DNA of 53,475 bases from an uncultured Solirubrobacteraceae bacterium (GCA_902806205.1 CADCVR010000076.1:1-53475), one strand, 5' to 3'. Positions 13,040 through 44,710 are shown, numbered from the stretch's first letter. A program made the numbers and translations. The notes: a model not told the origin generated them from the sequence alone.

Positions 13040-14347
13040 TCAGGCCACCAGGCGCACCTTCATCTCCCCGGCGACCCCGCCGTCCAGGCCGGCTCCGCGC
13101 AGCAGCGCGAGGATCTGCGCGACGTATCTCTGCGTCTCGCGGTACGGCGGGACGCAGCCGCAGGCCTCCACGGCCCCCGGCCCGGCGTTGTAGGCCGCCA
13201 GCGCCAGCGGCACCGACCCGAATCGCCGCAGCAGGTCGCGCATGAGGTGGGCCTGCGCATCGATGCTCGCCGCCGCGTCGAACGGGTTGCGCAGCCCGTA
13301 GCCCCGCGCCGTCCCCGGCATGAACTGGGCGATGCCCTGAGCGCCGGCTCCGGAGACCGCGAACGGATTGAAGTTCGACTCGGCGTAGAGCTGCGCCGCC
13401 AACAGCGCCCCGGAGACGTTCCAGCGCTGCGCCGCGCGAGCGATCGCGGGCGCGTACCGCTCGGGAACGAAGCTCGGCAGCGCGGTGCGTCCGTCCGCCT
13501 TGTAGCCGAGCGATGCGGTTCCCGCGTTGAGCGTGTAGCCGTAGTGCCATGGCTCCCACGCGTAGCGGCGCACGAAGTGGAAGCGCTTCGCGTTGGCCAG
13601 CAACCAGGGGTAGGCCGCGTTCGGACCCAGATCGAGTTCCGTGCCGAGACGGTGCAGCGATCTGCCGGGCGGGGCGACCCACTTGGGGTCGGGATGTCGG
13701 GCGAACAGCACGGCCTGCTCGGCGTCGGAGCGGTAGCCGCTGACGACGATCAGCGCATGACCGTCCTTGCGCGCGGCGGCGGTCAGGCGGTCGAAGGCAG
13801 CCGCGACGTCGGGGCGCATCGGCTTGCCCTGGCGCGTGGCGTACGGCCCGGCGTACTCCCCCGCGTTCTGCGGACCCGGAAGCGCCGCGTCGTCGAAGGC
13901 GGCGACGATCTCGGCCTCCGCGCGCGTCCCGGCGACGACGTCGTCGCCGACGCCGAGCGTATCGAGCACCGTGACGCGAACGCGGGTCGGGGCGGTCGAG
14001 GCGGCGTCGGGAAACGACACCGCGATGGCATCGACCCCGTTCTCGCGCGCGACCGCTCGGGCCGCCTCGCGGGCGCGGGCGAGGTACCCGTCGCGCTCGA
14101 GGTGCATCTGGTCCGCCCGGCCGGCCACCACGGCCGGCCGGAACAGGCGGGGGTAGGCGACGGCCATCGCCCGCGCCGCAGCCAGCGCCGACAGGTCGGC
14201 GGCCCGCTGCTGGTCTCCGCGCCCCGTCAGCCCCGACGCGATCGCCGCCAGGATCGCAGCGCCGAGGAGGAGGAACGCCAATCCGCCGATCACGAGCGCG
14301 ATCGCCTGGCCGGACTCGTCTGGCGCCCCGGTCCGCGGTGCGATCAT
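13040..14347 (-). CDS. TadG-like / VanY-type peptidase / lytic transglycosylase fusion
   Basis: A 435-residue three-part protein. Residues 1-60 are a TadG-like N-terminus: ESGQAIALVIGG with a hydrophobic helix, then RGDQQRAADLSALAAARAMA. Residues about 165-272 match M15/VanY D-Ala-D-Ala carboxypeptidases: SGYRS, then S230-L-H232-R-L-G-T-E-L-D239 (SxHxxGxxxD) and W-E265-P-W-H268, giving the His/Asp/His zinc set with Glu 265 as likely base. Residues about 295-420 are an SLT domain with catalytic Glu 323 (YAESNFNP), GAQGIAQFMPGTA and LAAYNAGPGAV. It overlaps the preceding gene by ATGA. A single exported enzyme could thus cut both stem peptides and glycan strands where a Tad-like apparatus crosses the wall (inference). 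Whether the N-terminus is processed is unclear, as the +5 Glu of true pseudopilins is absent. Confidence 0.88.
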   Translation of the reverse strand: MIAPRTGAPDESGQAIALVIGGLAFLLLGAAILAAIASGLTGRGDQQRAADLSALAAARAMAVAYPRLFRPAVVAGRADQMHLERDGYLARAREAARAVARENGVDAIAVSFPDAASTAPTRVRVTVLDTLGVGDDVVAGTRAEAEIVAAFDDAALPGPQNAGEYAGPYATRQGKPMRPDVAAAFDRLTAAARKDGHALIVVSGYRSDAEQAVLFARHPDPKWVAPPGRSLHRLGTELDLGPNAAYPWLLANAKRFHFVRRYAWEPWHYGYTLNAGTASLGYKADGRTALPSFVPERYAPAIARAAQRWNVSGALLAAQLYAESNFNPFAVSGAGAQGIAQFMPGTARGYGLRNPFDAAASIDAQAHLMRDLLRRFGSVPLALAAYNAGPGAVEACGCVPPYRETQRYVAQILALLRGAGLDGGVAGEMKVRLVA

Positions 14348-15720
14348 CGCAGCGCCTCCAGCGCCTGACCGACCGCCGCGCGCCGCATGGCCGCGCCATG
14401 CCGGGCGGCCAACGGCACCGCCTGCACCAGCGCACCGGGCGCCACCTCGGTGAGTTCGGCAACCGCCAGGGCGGAGAGGGACGGCGGAGCTCCGGCGGCG
14501 ACCACGACCAGCACGAGATCCTGACCGGCGACCAGCGCATCGACTCCGGGGCGGCGTACACCGGGCCACAGCGTCACCATCGGCGCGCCCGGAGCCCGCG
14601 CGTCGACCGCGGCGAAGAGCGCGCGGGCGTTCTCGGGCGCATCCGGTAGCAGCGCGCCCACCACCCGTCCGCGCGCGGACGCCGGGTGGCCGTCGGTCAC
14701 CAGCCGGCGGGCGACGCGCCGGGCGCTTGGCGCCGCCGGACGGAGCGGTCCAAGCGGACGCGCCGGTGCCCTCCCATGGTCGGGCGGCGGGGAGCAGAGC
14801 GCCGCGCAGCGCGCGGTCGGCAGGCGCGCCAGACGTGCAGCGAGCGCCCACGCGAGACTCGCTCCGGCCTGCTCGCCACCGAGGACGCAGACGCGCAGGC
14901 CACACGCGCCCAACGCCGAGATCAGGCCGGAAGCTCCGGCCGGCGCGGCCGCAGCGACCGAAGCGGCCGGCGCGACGGCAGCGACCGAAGCGACCGGCGC
15001 GGCCGAAGCGACCGGCGCCGCCGGCGACGGAGCTCGCCGAACTGTTCGAGGCCTCTCCCGTTCAGCCCGCAGGACGCCGGACGGGTCACCCTCCCCGCTC
15101 GACTCGGGCGCGTCCGGGGTCGCCGCGCGGAGTGACGTCAGACCGAGCTCGCGTACCCGAGCCGGGTGCCCCTCCGGCGCGGTGCTGCGCGAGACCCCCA
15201 GCGCGGCGCTTCGGTGCTGATCGGCGGGCACGACCAGAAGCACCGGACCGCTGGACGGCGCGCCCGCGCGACGGGTGGGCCGAGCCGCGTCGTCGATCGC
15301 CGCGGCCGCGCCCGGCAACGACGTGCCGTCGATCGCCGCCGCGGCATCGAGGGTCGTCGAGCCCTGGGCTGCTGCGGCGGGAGCGACAGACCCGCCGCCC
15401 GTGTCCCGTCCAGGCGACCGCTGCACCCGTCCGCCGCGTGCCGGTCGTGGCTTGCGGCGCCCTGGGGACCGCGGCGCCGGGAAGGAGACCGTGCGGCTTT
15501 CGACGGGCGACGGTGGCGGCCAGGGCGCCGCCGATGGCTCCGGCCCCGCCGTGCTCGAAAGCGACGGCTCGGGAACGGACGCCGACGCTCCACTGCCCGT
15601 CGGGGACGACCCGGCCCCGGACGACGGCCCCGCGCGACATGCGCCACGCCGCGCAGCCGTGGCCGACAGCCCGCCGGGCGGCGTGACGAACAGGGCCACC
15701 AAGCGCTCGACGGCGCTCAC
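14344..15720 (-). CDS. Low-complexity protein of the Tad-like operon, possibly with a degenerate MinD/TadZ-like domain
   Basis: 458 residues with GTG start overlapping the upstream TadE-like stop (GTGA) and a 3' ATGA overlap with the fusion gene, so it is certainly translated within this operon. Residues 1-270 are Pro/Ala/Ser/Arg-rich and disordered, ending in imperfect Ala-Pro-Val-Ala-Ser repeats encoded by GCGACCG-rich DNA near 14940-15020. The C-terminal third is ordered: GLRVCVLGGEQAGASLAWALAARLARL resembles the deviant P-loop region of MinD/ParA-type TadZ/CpaE proteins but lacks the Walker lysine, followed by strands QDLVLVVVAAGAP and a final helix. The relation to TadZ is inference; without it I would call the protein unknown. 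Confidence 0.7.
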   Translation of the reverse strand: MSAVERLVALFVTPPGGLSATAARRGACRAGPSSGAGSSPTGSGASASVPEPSLSSTAGPEPSAAPWPPPSPVESRTVSFPAPRSPGRRKPRPARGGRVQRSPGRDTGGGSVAPAAAAQGSTTLDAAAAIDGTSLPGAAAAIDDAARPTRRAGAPSSGPVLLVVPADQHRSAALGVSRSTAPEGHPARVRELGLTSLRAATPDAPESSGEGDPSGVLRAERERPRTVRRAPSPAAPVASAAPVASVAAVAPAASVAAAAPAGASGLISALGACGLRVCVLGGEQAGASLAWALAARLARLPTARCAALCSPPPDHGRAPARPLGPLRPAAPSARRVARRLVTDGHPASARGRVVGALLPDAPENARALFAAVDARAPGAPMVTLWPGVRRPGVDALVAGQDLVLVVVAAGAPPSLSALAVAELTEVAPGALVQAVPLAARHGAAMRRAAVGQALEALR

Positions 15721-16166
15721 GCGTCCTTCCCCGCGCGGGCGTGGACGGTGCTCTCGAGCAGGCGCGCGAGGCCGGGCACCAGCGTGGGCGGTCGCATGCG
15801 GACCGTGACGTCTCCGCCACGGACGGTGATGGTCATGCGGGTGGTCGACCAGCCCGGCACGGCGTCGCGCGCGGCGCCGCGCGCGTCGGCGCGCTGCAGC
15901 AGCGCCACGGCACCGGCCCCGGCGGCATGGCCGGCGAGCTCGCGAGTCGCTCCCGCGGCGAGGAACTGAAGCGCGGTGAGCATGACCGCGACCGCGACCG
16001 GCAGCATCGCGACGAGCTCGACGCTCGCCTGGCCACGCTGCACCGGGCCCCGGCCAGGACGGGGCGGCGCCGGCGCCGCCCCGCCGTGTCGGCTCCCGAC
16101 GAGACGGGGGTCGCACTCCACGGCTGCCCGAGCGCCGTGCGCCCGGAGTTCGACGGCGCCGCTCAT
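15717..16166 (-). CDS. TadE-like pseudopilin (second of pair)
   Basis: 149 residues. The TadE/class III signal RG-QASVELVAMLP is at 44-56: Gly 45 before the predicted cleavage, Glu 50 at +5, then a hydrophobic helix. A 44-residue polar leader precedes it, longer than usual, so the true start may be internal. The mature part is a small alpha/beta domain (GAVALLQRADARGAARDAV, MTITVRGGDVTVRMRPP). It overlaps its upstream paralogue by 4 bp and the downstream gene by 4 bp. Predicted minor pseudopilin of a Tad/Flp-like system that needs a TadV-type prepilin peptidase encoded elsewhere. Confidence 0.82.
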   Translation of the reverse strand: MSGAVELRAHGARAAVECDPRLVGSRHGGAAPAPPRPGRGPVQRGQASVELVAMLPVAVAVMLTALQFLAAGATRELAGHAAGAGAVALLQRADARGAARDAVPGWSTTRMTITVRGGDVTVRMRPPTLVPGLARLLESTVHARAGKDA

Positions 16167-16519
16167 CGCTGCCCCTGCGGCGCGAAGTGCGCCTCGCGCG
16201 CGACCGCGCCCAGCCGGCCGTCGCCGCCGGGCACCACGACGGGGACGGTGAGGCGCACCGCCACCCGGCCGTCGGCCGTCGTCTTGACGCGCACGTCGTC
16301 GCGCAGGCGCACGGGCAGCGCGGCGCGCGCGCCGAGGGTGGCGTCGTCGCCGAGCGCCTGAGCGCGCGCCGCGGCGCGTGCGGCCGTGCCCGCCAGCCAG
16401 GCGGCCTGGCCGGCGACGGCGACCTGCCAGCCGACGGTGGCGAGCGCCGCCATGAGCGGCAGGAGCGCGACGAGCTCGACGCTTGCCTGACCGCGCTCGC
16501 CGGGAGGACTGTGGGGCAT
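16163..16519 (-). CDS. TadE-like pseudopilin (first of pair)
   Basis: 118 residues and first gene of the Tad-like operon. The prepilin signal is ERG-QASVELVALLPLMAAL, with Gly 10 at -1 and Glu 15 at +5, followed by a single hydrophobic helix and a mature domain of helices and strands (VRVKTTADGRVAVRLTVPVV). It is clearly a paralogue of the next gene (shared GQASVELVA). No Shine-Dalgarno is visible; a TAGTTT hexamer lies about 30 nt upstream. None of the core Tad genes (ATPase, TadB/TadC platform, secretin, Flp pilin) is in the window. Confidence 0.85.
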   Translation of the reverse strand: MPHSPPGERGQASVELVALLPLMAALATVGWQVAVAGQAAWLAGTAARAAARAQALGDDATLGARAALPVRLRDDVRVKTTADGRVAVRLTVPVVVPGGDGRLGAVAREAHFAPQGQR

Positions 16520-16596: not shown

Positions 16597-16956
16597 TCAG
16601 TACGCGTCGTTGCGGTGCTGCCGGTACACCACGACCAGCGAGTAGGACGCCGCGACGATGACCGCGAACCACAGCAGCGTGCCGGCCGTGGTGTCCCACA
16701 GGCGCTCGCGGATGGCCATCATCAGGACCGCCGCGCCCAGCGCCCCGTAGAGCATCCCGCGGTACCGGTCGCCGAGCGAGAAGATCGCGATGCGGTGCTC
16801 CCGGTACAGGCGCCATCCGATGAACGCGATGCTCACGGTGATGAGGATCGACAGGACCGCCTGGACGAACGAAGCGGTCCTGCCACCGCCCGGAATCCCG
16901 TAGACCGCGCCGGCGAGCACCAGGACGATGAGGACGTTGCGGGCCGTGGCGCTCAT
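16597..16956 (-). CDS. Small polytopic membrane protein
   Basis: 119 residues with four hydrophobic helices: VLIVLVLAGAVYGI, FVQAVLSILITVSIAFIGW, GMLYGALGAAVLMMAI and TLLWFAVIVAASYSLVVVY. A short basic loop (RLYREHRIAIFSLGDRYR) lies between helices 2 and 3. No family is recognised and no catalytic motif is visible. The start has a GGAGG ribosome-binding site and a TAGATT hexamer upstream. It lies between the Tad-like operon and the response regulator but need not belong to either. Confidence 0.75.
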   Translation of the reverse strand: MSATARNVLIVLVLAGAVYGIPGGGRTASFVQAVLSILITVSIAFIGWRLYREHRIAIFSLGDRYRGMLYGALGAAVLMMAIRERLWDTTAGTLLWFAVIVAASYSLVVVYRQHRNDAY

Positions 16957-30473: not shown

Positions 30474-31541
30474 TCAGCCGAGGGGCACGAGCCGCGTGGC
30501 GGCGGCCTTCCACGTCGCGGCCACCAGGACACCCGCCCGGAGGTCGAGATGCGCGACGGCGGTGGTGCTGACCTCGGCGGTCAGCCGCTCGGCGCCGTCG
30601 AGCCCGAGGCGGACGCGCCCGCCGATCGTGGTGACCGACAGGACGCGGGCCTCCACGCGGTTCTGCGCCGATCGGGGTGCGGTCTGCCCCGCCGGCTCGA
30701 CCGTGACCTCCCACGGGAACACGGTGGCGGCGACGGGTCCTGACGCCACGTCGGTGCTCCGGATCGCGTGGCCGCCCGCGAGGACGACGACGGTGCTGCC
30801 GTCGGCCTGCGGCGTGGCGGTGCCGCGCAGGACGACGGCGCCGGTGAAGTCGGCGACGAACGCGGTGGCCGGGCACGCGGCCAATGCGCTGGCCGTGCCC
30901 TGCTGGACCACGCGGCCGCGGTCGAGCACCGCGACCTCGTCGCCGAGCAGCGCGGCCTCGGTGAAGTCGTGTGTGACCAGGATCACCGGGATCTCGCTGG
31001 CACGCAGGACGTCGGCGAGCTCGCGCCCCGCGGCGGCCCGGGTGCGGGTGTCCAGGGCCGAGAGCGGCTCGTCGAGCAACAGGACGTCGGGGCGGCGGGC
31101 CAGGGCGCGCGCCAGGGCGACGCGCTGGCGCTCCCCGCCCGAGAGTGTGGCGGGGCGGGCGTCGGCGAGCTCGGCCAGGCCGAAGCGCGCAAGCCAGGCC
31201 CGCGCCTCCTGCTCGCGGGTGGCGCGCGGGCGATCGCGGAGCGCGTAGGCGACGTTCTGCCAGGCACGCCGGTGGCCGAAGAGCGCGTAGTCCTGAAAGA
31301 CGTAGCCGCAGCGGCGCTGCTCCGGGCGGCGGTCGATGCCGCGGACGGTGTCGAGCCACACCTCCTCCCCCGAGGTCACGCGGCCGCTCGCGGGCCGCAG
31401 CAGGCCGGCGGCGACGCGCAGCGCTGAGCTCTTGCCGGCGCCGGACGGCCCCGCGATGGCCAGGCAGCACCCGGCGGGGACTTCGAGGTCGACCTCCAGG
31501 CGCAGGGCGCCGAGGTCGGTCTGCGCCTCAACGCGCAGCAA
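30474..31541 (-). CDS. modC: Molybdate ABC transporter ATP-binding protein
   Basis: 355 residues: Walker A GPSGAGKSSALRVAAG, Q-loop region GYVFQDYALFGHRR, signature LSGGERQRVALARAL, Walker B LLLDEPLSALD and H-loop VTHDFTEAALLGDE. The C-terminal third is a Mop/TOBE oxyanion-binding domain (VEARVLSVTTIGGRVRLGL). A TTG start at 31541 overlaps modB by 14 bp, which is unusual but no better start exists near the conserved N-terminus. Converges with the RTX-like gene. Confidence 0.92.
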   Translation of the reverse strand: MLRVEAQTDLGALRLEVDLEVPAGCCLAIAGPSGAGKSSALRVAAGLLRPASGRVTSGEEVWLDTVRGIDRRPEQRRCGYVFQDYALFGHRRAWQNVAYALRDRPRATREQEARAWLARFGLAELADARPATLSGGERQRVALARALARRPDVLLLDEPLSALDTRTRAAAGRELADVLRASEIPVILVTHDFTEAALLGDEVAVLDRGRVVQQGTASALAACPATAFVADFTGAVVLRGTATPQADGSTVVVLAGGHAIRSTDVASGPVAATVFPWEVTVEPAGQTAPRSAQNRVEARVLSVTTIGGRVRLGLDGAERLTAEVSTTAVAHLDLRAGVLVAATWKAAATRLVPLG

Positions 31542-32331
31542 GACGGGGGGTCGCTGCGCGGGTGGCGAGCTTGACGGTGAGCAGGATCGCCCCGGACACG
31601 GCGACGAGGACGGCGGAGAGGCCGAGGGCCGCGGTGAAGTCGGTGGCGAAGCGCTCGTAGATGGCCAGCGGGACCGTCTGGGTCACGCCCCGGAAGGAGC
31701 CCGCGAACATCAGCGTGGCCCCGAACTCCCCCAGCGCCCGGCCCCAGGCGAGGGCCAGGCCGGCGACGAGGCCGGGCAGCGCGGCGGGGATCGCGACCCG
31801 GGCGAAGGTCGTGGCCTCGCCGGCACCGAGCGTCCGGGACGCCTCGAGCCAGGACGGGTCCAGGGCACCGAAGGCGGCCTCGGCCTGGCGCAGGTAGAAC
31901 GGCGCGGCGACGAACGTGAGCGCCAGCACGACGCTGGCGGTGGTCAGCACGACGCGGAGGCCCGCGTCGTCGAGCGTCTGCCCCAACAGCCCGTTGGGCC
32001 CGAGGGCGGCGAGCAGGCCGACGCCCGCCACCGCGGGCGGGAGGACGAGCGGCAGCTCGATGAGCGTGACCACGACGCTGCGCCCGCGAAAGCTGCGCGT
32101 GGCCAGGAGGTAGGCCGCCGGCGTCCCGACCAGCACGATGATCGCGACGGCCAGCGCGCTCGTCCACAGGCTGAGCGTCAGCGCGTCGACGGCGGCCGGG
32201 TCGCCGAGGCTGGCCAGCAGGTCGCCTGGGCCGGTGTCGACGAAGATGGCGACGATCGGCAGCGTCAGGAAGCACAGCGCCAGCGCCAGCGCCGCGCACA
32301 GCAGCGGCGCAAACCAGCGGGCCTGCGTCAT
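31528..32331 (-). CDS. modB: Molybdate ABC transporter permease
   Basis: 267 residues with five to six membrane helices and the ModB/CysT-type coupling loop WLEASRTLGAGEATTFARVAIP followed by GRALGEFGATLMFAGS. LPLVLPPAVAGVGLLAALG is characteristic of ModB. ATG at 32331 overlaps the modA stop as ATGA; the open frame upstream is antisense-like filler. Confidence 0.93.
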   Translation of the reverse strand: MTQARWFAPLLCAALALALCFLTLPIVAIFVDTGPGDLLASLGDPAAVDALTLSLWTSALAVAIIVLVGTPAAYLLATRSFRGRSVVVTLIELPLVLPPAVAGVGLLAALGPNGLLGQTLDDAGLRVVLTTASVVLALTFVAAPFYLRQAEAAFGALDPSWLEASRTLGAGEATTFARVAIPAALPGLVAGLALAWGRALGEFGATLMFAGSFRGVTQTVPLAIYERFATDFTAALGLSAVLVAVSGAILLTVKLATRAATPRLAAR

Positions 32332-33128
32332 GTCCCGGCCGGCGGACCGAAGCCGTGGTCGCGCAGCGCCTGGGCGCCCGCGCCCGCGAGCAGCCCGTCG
32401 ACGAACGCCCGGCCGCCGGCCCGGTTCGGGGCGCCCCTGACCACGGTCACGCCGTATTCGACGGTCGGCTTCAAGGCGTCGGGCAGCTCGATCGCCCTCA
32501 GCTTCCCGCGGGCGCCCGCGACGTCGGAGCGGTAGACGAAGCCGGCGTCGACGGCGCCCTGGGTGAGTTTGCCGACGATTCCGCCGACGTCGGGCTCCCG
32601 CGAGCGGACGTTGGCGAGGATCGCCTCGGACCGCGTCGCGGGCAGGCGGTCCAGGACGGCGCGCGTGTACTCGCCGACCGGGACGCCGTCGGCACCGAGG
32701 GCGAGCGTCACCCCGTCCCGGCCGAGATCCGCGAGCGACGCGACCTTGCCGCCGGCCGCCGGGACGGCGAGGACGAGCTCGTTGGTCGCGAAGCGCACGG
32801 GCCGCTCGACCAGGCCCTCCTCGAACAGCTGGTCGGGCAGCGTGACGTTGGCGGCGGCGAAGACGTCGGGCGTGACCCCCTGGCGGATCTGGGCCGCCAG
32901 CTCGTCGGACCCGGCGAACGACAGCCGCACCACTCCCCCGTCGAACCGCTCGCCGTAGCGCGTCAGCGCCTGCTTCAGCGACGCGGCCGCCGCGACGACG
33001 ACCTCGCCGGACTTCGGACGCCGGCCCGCCCCGTTCTCCGCGTCGCCACCGCACGCGCTGGGCGCTCCGGCGAGCAGCGCGACGACGAGCGCCGCCAGCG
33101 CGATACCCGGGCGCCCCGGCCGCGTCAC
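32328..33128 (-). CDS. modA: Molybdate-binding lipoprotein ModA
   Basis: 266 residues with a lipoprotein signal (IALAALVVALLAGAPSAC) and the ModA fold: VVVAAAASLKQALTRYGERF, LSFAGSDELAAQIRQGVTPDVFAAAN, FATNELVLAVP, GVTLALGADGVPVGEYTRAVL and GAVDAGFVYRSDV. Substrate is molybdate or tungstate. The GTG start overlaps the stop of the upstream regulator (GTGA). Confidence 0.93.
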   Translation of the reverse strand: MTRPGRPGIALAALVVALLAGAPSACGGDAENGAGRRPKSGEVVVAAAASLKQALTRYGERFDGGVVRLSFAGSDELAAQIRQGVTPDVFAAANVTLPDQLFEEGLVERPVRFATNELVLAVPAAGGKVASLADLGRDGVTLALGADGVPVGEYTRAVLDRLPATRSEAILANVRSREPDVGGIVGKLTQGAVDAGFVYRSDVAGARGKLRAIELPDALKPTVEYGVTVVRGAPNRAGGRAFVDGLLAGAGAQALRDHGFGPPAGT

Positions 33129-43270: not shown

Positions 43271-44710
43271 ATGTCGGTCCCCCGGCTCCGGGCACTGCTC
43301 CTCCTGCTCCTCCTCGGCGGACTGACCGGCACGGTCGCCCACGCCGCCGTCCGGACCGGCGACAACGCACCCGACCGGCTGGTGGGCACCGGCGCGAAGG
43401 ACATCCTGCGCGGCCGCGGCTCGCAGGACAAGCTCTTCGGCCGCGCGGGCAACGACCTGCTCTCGGGCGGCAGCGCCGGCGACTTCATCCTGGGCCAGGA
43501 GGGCAACGACGACCTCGACGGCGGCTCGGGCAACGACCGCATGGACGGCGGGCCCGACGGGGATGTCCTCTTCGGCGACACGGGCAACGACATCCTGCAG
43601 GGCGGCCCGGGCAACGACGAGCTCGACGGCTTCGACGGAGACGACGTCATCTTCGGTGGCGAGGGCAACGACCTGCTGGTCGAGACCCGCTTCGGTGACG
43701 ACCGCCTGCTCGACGGCGGCCCCGGCGACGACGTCCTGATGGGCAACGCGGGCAGCGACCGGCGCCTCGAGGGTGGCGAGGGCGACGACATCCTCTCGGG
43801 CGGGACGGGCAACGACGGGCTCGACGGCGGACCCGGGGACGACCTGCTCTTCCCGGGGTCCGGACAGGCCAACGGCCTTCCCGCACTGGGCGGGCCGGGC
43901 AACGACACGCTCGTCGACGTCGGCTCGGGAACGCTCGACGGCGGTGAGGGCGACGACACGCTCTGGGCGGCGCTCGACCGTGCCTCCCCGACCCTGATCG
44001 GCGGACAGGGCAACGACGTGCTCTACATCGGCGCCAACACGATGGTCGCCGACTGCGGTGCCGGCCGCGACGTGGCGTACCTCAGCGCCGAGACGACCGA
44101 GCGCCGCACGCGCGAGACCCTGTCGCTGGTGATCGGCTTCCTCGAGTGCGAGCGCGTCGTCCTGCAGCCCGCGGGAGCCGAGCCGCCGCTGTTCGAGAGC
44201 TTCGAGGAGCGCTACCGCGGTCGTGGCGTGGGCTGGGACGACGACGTCGTCGGCAGCGCGCTGTCCTACGAGAGCCGCCGCTCCTGCCTCAGGCGCCGCT
44301 CCAGGTGCCGCCCCAACCGCCTCGACCAGCGGATCGTCGGCACCGACCGCGGCGACCGTCTCTCCGGTGGCGGAGGCGACGACCTGCTCGAAGGGGCGGA
44401 GGGCTCCGACCACCTCTCGGGCGGGCGCGGGCGCGACGTGCTCTTCGGCCGCACGGGAGGCGACACGCTGCTCGGCGGCCTCGGCAGCGACGAGCTCGAG
44501 GGCGGGCGCGGCAGCGACCACCTCGACGGCGGCGAGGGGAACGACCGCATCACGGGTGGCTTCGGCCCGGACCGCATCCTCGGCGGCGGGGGCGACGACA
44601 CGATCCGCACGGTCGGCGGCAGTCGCGACGTCGTCGACTGCGGCCCGGGACGCGATCGCATCGAGAAGGACACGCGCGACGTGACGCGCAACTGCGAGGT
44701 TGTGCTGTAG
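43271..44710 (+). CDS. Secreted RTX-like calcium-binding repeat protein with two repeat blocks
   Basis: 479 residues with a signal peptide (LRALLLLLLLGGLTGTVAHA). Block 1 (about 35-250) has more than a dozen GGxGNDxxx units, then a cap ADCGAGRDVAYLS ... FLECERVVL. An Arg/Cys-rich insert (SCLRRRSRCRPNRLDQ) leads to block 2 (about 360-440) and a final cap VVDCGPGRDRIEKD ... RNCEVVL. Calcium-dependent beta-roll folding outside the cell is expected. ATG is 7 nt after TACGGT (43258-43263), a leaderless arrangement. Confidence 0.85.
   Translation: MSVPRLRALLLLLLLGGLTGTVAHAAVRTGDNAPDRLVGTGAKDILRGRGSQDKLFGRAGNDLLSGGSAGDFILGQEGNDDLDGGSGNDRMDGGPDGDVLFGDTGNDILQGGPGNDELDGFDGDDVIFGGEGNDLLVETRFGDDRLLDGGPGDDVLMGNAGSDRRLEGGEGDDILSGGTGNDGLDGGPGDDLLFPGSGQANGLPALGGPGNDTLVDVGSGTLDGGEGDDTLWAALDRASPTLIGGQGNDVLYIGANTMVADCGAGRDVAYLSAETTERRTRETLSLVIGFLECERVVLQPAGAEPPLFESFEERYRGRGVGWDDDVVGSALSYESRRSCLRRRSRCRPNRLDQRIVGTDRGDRLSGGGGDDLLEGAEGSDHLSGGRGRDVLFGRTGGDTLLGGLGSDELEGGRGSDHLDGGEGNDRITGGFGPDRILGGGGDDTIRTVGGSRDVVDCGPGRDRIEKDTRDVTRNCEVVL

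Follow-up and report, generated by a model that had tools for sequence, protein, structure and literature searches.

A Tad-type minor pilin with predicted carboxypeptidase and lytic transglycosylase domains, encoded apart from its probable motor genes in Solirubrobacterales

The window considered here is a contig of 53,475 nucleotides from an uncultured Solirubrobacteraceae bacterium (GCA_902806205.1, CADCVR010000076.1:1-53475), which carries on its minus strand an operon resembling part of a tight adherence (Tad) locus. Its four open reading frames (ORFs) encode, in order, two TadE-like proteins (TadE1 and TadE2), a protein of 458 aa, and a fusion of a TadG-like segment with a VanY-type peptidase domain and an SLT lytic transglycosylase domain (TadG-VanY-SLT). 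Each ORF is joined to the next by a 4-bp overlap, the three junctions reading ATGA, GTGA and ATGA; the start of TadE2 was placed at 16166, possibly 16043. ORF coordinates and junctions thus bear out the four overlapping Tad-like genes described in an earlier, sequence-only reading of this DNA, which had overlooked the membrane protein of 119 aa heading the conserved block (no Pfam match above cut-off was found for this protein). The features are listed in Table 1.

Table 1. Features of the operon and of the gene preceding it, in window positions; residue numbers refer to the fusion protein.
Feature	Position	Strand	Evidence
Multi-transmembrane protein, 119 aa, conserved head of the block	16597..16956	minus	Syntenic in Solirubrobacterales and the second lineage
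TadE1 minor pilin	16163..16519	minus	RG^QASVEL, Glu at +5; PF07811 E=0.069
TadE2 minor pilin	15717..16166	minus	RG^QASVEL, Glu at +5; syntenic in relatives
Putative degenerate TadZ/CpaE-like gene, 458 aa	14344..15720	minus	Position, alignment with relatives, family profile against TadZ
Conserved MinD/TadZ-like part of the 458-aa gene	14347..14925	minus	Alignment; deviant P-loop VLGGEQAGAS
TadG-VanY-SLT fusion gene, 435 aa	13040..14347	minus	ATG at 14347; Pfam/NCBIfam; kept in 159/232 genomes of the order
TadG-like pilin module, residues 12-149	13901..14314	minus	SG^QAIAL, PF13400 E=0.05, AF2 model, +5 residue
VanY/LdcB-like M15B zinc carboxypeptidase domain, residues 177-271	13535..13819	minus	PF02557, invariant residues, LdcB/VanY folds
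SLT lytic transglycosylase domain, residues 302-394	13166..13444	minus	PF01464, catalytic E323, Slt/MltC fold

Both enzymatic domains of the fusion are clearly recognized by Pfam, with E-values of 1.1e-15 for PF02557 and 1.9e-20 for PF01464. The M15 motif (SLHRLGTELD..WEPWH) provides the zinc/base residues H232, D239, H268 and E265, and corresponds to the M15B signature SxHxxGxxxD and ExWH, present here as SLHRLGTELD and EPWH. The SLT signature is likewise present (the catalytic Glu in ESxFNP, and the GIAQFMP and AYNAG motifs). The four M15 residues are invariant across 28 homologues, as are E323, G338, Y386 and N387 of the SLT domain. A moderate AlphaFold2 (AF2) model (predicted local distance difference test score, pLDDT, 60) led Foldseek to both Slt/MltC and LdcB/VanY folds, so that the predicted structure recovers the M15 and SLT folds and, together with the Pfam matches and invariant residues, upholds the claim of a three-domain fusion with intact catalytic residues. 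The peptidase had also been described as being of D-Ala-D-Ala type; the M15 fold and motif stand, while the D,D type is unproven, as the modelled fold matches enzymes of either kind, VanY (D,D) as well as LdcB (L,D). The VanY/LdcB carboxypeptidases and the Slt/MltC/MltF lytic transglycosylases share folds and catalytic residues with the fusion but, unlike it, are normally separate proteins which are not tied to a Tad pilin.

The N-terminus of the fusion has a weak TadG-like Pfam match (PF13400, residues 13-60), and is modelled as a helix (12-68), a second helix (85-102) and three strands, which is a pilin-like order. Its prepilin-type site carries a hydrophobic residue (Leu) at +5, and Glu is found at this position in none of 30 homologues. 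The Pfam matches of TadE1 and TadE2 are below cut-off, yet both proteins have the prepilin site RG^QASVE. It has been proposed that the first, or tip, subunit can be recognized as the one large minor pilin that is encoded last in its cluster and has a hydrophobic residue at +5 (PMC5207764), and homologues of TadE, TadF and TadG form the tip trimer of the Myxococcus Kil Tad pilus (PMC12075869). Since the fusion is the largest and last gene of the minor-pilin cluster and carries this GspK-like signature, and considering the composition of the Kil tip, we favour a position at the tip of the pilus, as an inference rather than a result.

Of 232 genomes of Solirubrobacterales, 159 contain the fusion, representing 46 of 54 genera (E <= 1e-20; the count includes a few weak single-domain matches), a conservation which rules out chance. 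The fusion is also present in a second Thermoleophilia lineage (family f5, perhaps Gaiellales). A sample of 396 genomes spanning the phylum yielded, outside Thermoleophilia, SLT-domain matches only, and a wider contig scan returned at least six full-length fusion loci among the matches listed, the remainder being SLT-only. The fusion family is old and has been kept in two lineages of the class: the earlier description of the architecture as unusual holds for the presence of three domains in one chain, but not as a local oddity. Gene order is also conserved: the block starts in both lineages with the 119-aa membrane protein and continues with TadE1, TadE2, in some cases the TadZ-like gene, the fusion, and then uvrC-rapZ-gapA-pgk-tpi.

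The third ORF has a GTG start and is repetitive, with a disordered N-terminal part and a conserved C-terminal part. The label of low-complexity protein given to it initially has been replaced, and low-complexity junk is ruled out, since the ORF belongs to a conserved family whose profile matches TadZ. Judging from sequence, we take the protein to be a degenerate TadZ/CpaE-like homologue with a long disordered N-terminus. Some relatives retain deviant P-loops (VVAVVGLSARCGATTVARAL), and others, including the copy in the window, are very degenerate. When compared with TadZ of the second lineage using hhalign, the profile of the P-loop-bearing subset gave E=1.3e-7 over 192 columns and that of the whole family E=1.8e-5, against E >= 1.4e-3 for decoy families, these being pairwise values; an earlier, smaller profile gave a weak match. 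Direct searches of Pfam, NCBIfam and PDB with the family returned nothing clear.

As stated in the sequence-only reading, no Tad ATPase was found on the window contig, and the operon had been considered either a reduced system or the supplier of an apparatus encoded elsewhere. The genome, checked for tadA/B/C, flp and tadV, contains five T2SSE-type matches. Contig C23 carries pilB and pilT of a type IVa pilus (T4aP) together with pilC, and contig C81 a further PilT-like ATPase. A complete canonical Tad locus is present on contig C68 (two flp, tadE, tadG, cpaB, cpaE, tadA, tadB, tadC and tadV). Contig C94 holds a second set, consisting of a response regulator, a histidine kinase, CpaB, TadA, TadB and a TadC truncated by the contig end; tadE, tadG, tadZ and flp were not found in this motor locus. 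Its TadA matches T2SSE (5e-62) and TIGR03819 (8.5e-101, slightly below cut-off), and its TadB matches T2SSF (3e-7). In relatives the same genes form a compact block from response regulator to TadC, with TadC complete. The second tadABC/cpaB locus rules out a motor-less or reduced system, in a genome which in addition has the canonical locus, and supports the other proposal, as it complements the operon. In this genome's motor locus, cpaB and tadA are separated by the genes for a long Asp-rich protein with thrombospondin type 3-like calcium-binding repeats and for a transporter resembling the major facilitator superfamily (L038:2716-6005).

The motor block lies upstream of mraZ-rsmH-ftsI, genes of the division and cell wall (dcw) cluster, in 17 of 19 Solirubrobacterales loci, on the same strand, and in 6 of the 9 second-lineage loci. 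A TadA of the C94 type is present in 26 of the 27 fusion-bearing genomes of our first panel. Among 112 good genomes, 72 have both fusion and motor, 31 have neither, 7 only the fusion and 2 only the motor (three of the motor calls rest on a TadA at a contig end). The A24 prepilin peptidase is found in all 30 genomes searched, with two copies in the genome of the window. The position of tadZ connects the two loci further. In the second lineage tadZ is located between cpaB and tadA of the motor locus (9/9 loci) and was not found in the fusion operon, while in Solirubrobacterales the TadZ-like gene is in the fusion operon and the motor locus lacks tadZ. Such a relocation of tadZ between the loci speaks well for their working in a single machine, and the fusion operon and the motor locus are complementary. 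In several genomes (L051, L052, L053, L061, L062, L066, L071 and L138) the TadZ-like protein and TadG-VanY-SLT are even encoded by a single ORF.

The fusion is co-inherited with ComEC, which was found in 76 of the 79 good genomes with the fusion and in 4 of the 33 without it (76/3/4/29, Fisher p of about 3e-19, shared ancestry being ignored). In a panel of 36 genomes, ComEC is present in 20/20 genomes of the order and the second lineage with the fusion and in 0/14 without; the other two genomes, which belong to a different family, carry ComEC without the fusion. The T4aP was considered as a partner for ComEC and is unsupported, as the distribution of PilB (missing in 5 of the 20 fusion genomes, present in 8 of the 14 lacking the fusion) departs from the ComEC/fusion pattern. 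Of the possible roles of the system, that of a competence pilus has the best support, what is observed being the co-inheritance with ComEC.

We therefore consider it probable that these genes encode a split Tad competence pilus, with a tip-type TadG minor pilin bearing a carboxypeptidase and a lytic transglycosylase. In this view Thermoleophilia would have a Tad (type IVc) pilus with split genes, of which the operon provides the minor-pilin (tip) half. TadE1, TadE2 and TadG-VanY-SLT, processed or inserted in the manner of pilins, would prime the filament; the TadZ-like protein would act at the cytoplasmic face, and the second locus, upstream of the division cluster, would supply the motor half. 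Both enzymes could then be presented by the TadG subunit outside the membrane, where they would open the thick wall locally and let the filament pass, along with DNA bound for ComEC. More tentatively, the tip may be a two-enzyme wall drill, carried through the wall by the growing competence pilus, with TadZ-like protein, pilin and enzymes in one chain in some species; if true, a single protein would couple the placement of the machine with the opening of the wall.

Several observations weigh against this interpretation. The motor was undetected in seven good genomes with the fusion, and G083, although 98% complete, has no TadA match. The Flp major pilin was not found in Solirubrobacterales genomes carrying only the split system (in the second lineage, a Flp-like gene follows tadC); because a diverged or shared major pilin may be used, the apparatus is referred to as a Tad-type machine and not as a Flp pilus. 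The Pfam scores of TadG and TadE are below cut-off, and AF2 modelled the TadZ-like protein poorly (pLDDT 40). As for the co-inheritance, the p values are blind to ancestry and there are about four clear concordant losses (G078 within its genus, G059, the g17-g19 group, and G232 in the second lineage). Finally, a carboxypeptidase trims stem peptides and by itself leaves cross-links uncut.

The split Tad pilus could also use its wall hydrolases for adhesion, secretion or predation, with ComEC lost in parallel, for example as a result of lifestyle. Most Tad pili do serve adhesion and the Tad tips of Kil kill prey (PMC12075869), and the two genomes with ComEC and no fusion fit such a role; however, the association between fusion and ComEC is tight, PilB departs from it, and in Micrococcus luteus an actinobacterial Tad system has been proven to be a competence pilus (PMC4322843), so we regard this as rather unlikely. 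Another explanation is that the fusion remodels the wall at the septum or more generally, having retained from TadG only the membrane anchor, its link to the Tad motor being historical. The location of the motor beside the division cluster, the name of the actinobacterial TadZ model (septum site-determining Ssd) and the genomes with the fusion and an undetected motor would agree with this, but the operon has retained the TadZ-like gene and the two prepilin-type TadE genes beside the fusion, which has been lost along with the motor in about 30 genomes, making a septal enzyme improbable. That the operon serves the complete canonical locus present on C68 is highly improbable and was rejected, as that locus is self-sufficient (with its own flp, tadE, tadG, cpaE and tadV) and its marker Flp is rare among fusion carriers (5 of the 25 tested).

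The known system nearest to this Tad-type machine is the actinobacterial cluster of the Rv3654c-Rv3660c type (TIGR03819, TIGR03815, TIGR03816; helicase/secretion neighbourhood). TIGR03819 is the best match of the C94 TadA, TadZ of the second lineage matches TIGR03815 Ssd (1.6e-13), and both systems have two TadE-like proteins and loci in which no secretin was seen. Unlike that cluster, the system described here occupies two loci, includes CpaB and a two-component pair, and has VanY and SLT domains on its last TadE/G-like protein, with Flp not found in Solirubrobacterales. In M. luteus, the tad-1 and tad-2 clusters are both required for transformation and DNA uptake, and resemble this system in being two clusters, with TadG-like proteins with one transmembrane segment and a peptidase gene elsewhere; they differ in having no TadZ and no reported wall-hydrolase domains (PMC4322843). 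In the TadG-like KilN of Myxococcus, a large C-terminal domain likewise sits at the extremity, but this domain is of unknown function, the host is a diderm and the pilus serves predation (PMC12075869). Modular type IV pilins such as PilB of Streptococcus sanguinis also have a functional module grafted onto a pilin module, in that case an adhesin in a T4aP, and the predicted peptidase modules are S74 and M26 (PMC8179133) as opposed to the M15 and SLT domains of the fusion.

Although the machine itself is of a known kind, the predicted wall hydrolases within one of its minor pilins, the stable division into two loci and the relocation and fusion of TadZ are new with respect to the open-access literature. 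A split into two loci is described as very rare for Tad (PMC6668835), and a 2025 structural study notes that the Tad pilus, unlike other appendages, had no reported association with a peptidoglycan hydrolase or lytic transglycosylase (PMC12307814). The presence of both predicted enzymes in a Tad minor pilin, class-wide in soil actinobacteria, suggests how such a pilus may pass a thick cell wall, and the genetic signature points to DNA uptake. No transformation study was found for the Thermoleophilia group in the open-access literature, and our results suggest where competence could be sought; culturable members such as Conexibacter arvalis make the proposed wall-cutting pilin testable.

A different pairing of transglycosylase and peptidase near a Tad locus was observed in G070, where a 574-aa protein encoded beside a canonical Tad locus (L111:9540-11264) has a lytic-transglycosylase-like domain and a C-terminal peptidase-like motif (HxxGxAxD..HIHVGF). 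The start of a similar gene is located at L037:13592-13999. Phosphate or wall-lipid genes recur beside the fusion block: it is preceded by pst-phoU and a PhoB-like regulator in family f1, by a PhoU-like protein and a Pit-like phosphate transporter in f2, and by an inorganic-pyrophosphatase-like protein and a UppP-like undecaprenyl pyrophosphate phosphatase in f4 (L045:5387-6709, L067:12589-14002). Elsewhere in the window, an RTX-like repeat protein (GTGAKDILRGRGSQDKLFGRAG) is encoded at 43271-44710, and a molybdate-transporter-like ATP-binding cassette set (ATPase, permease and binding protein), followed by a helix-turn-helix regulator, at 30474-33128.

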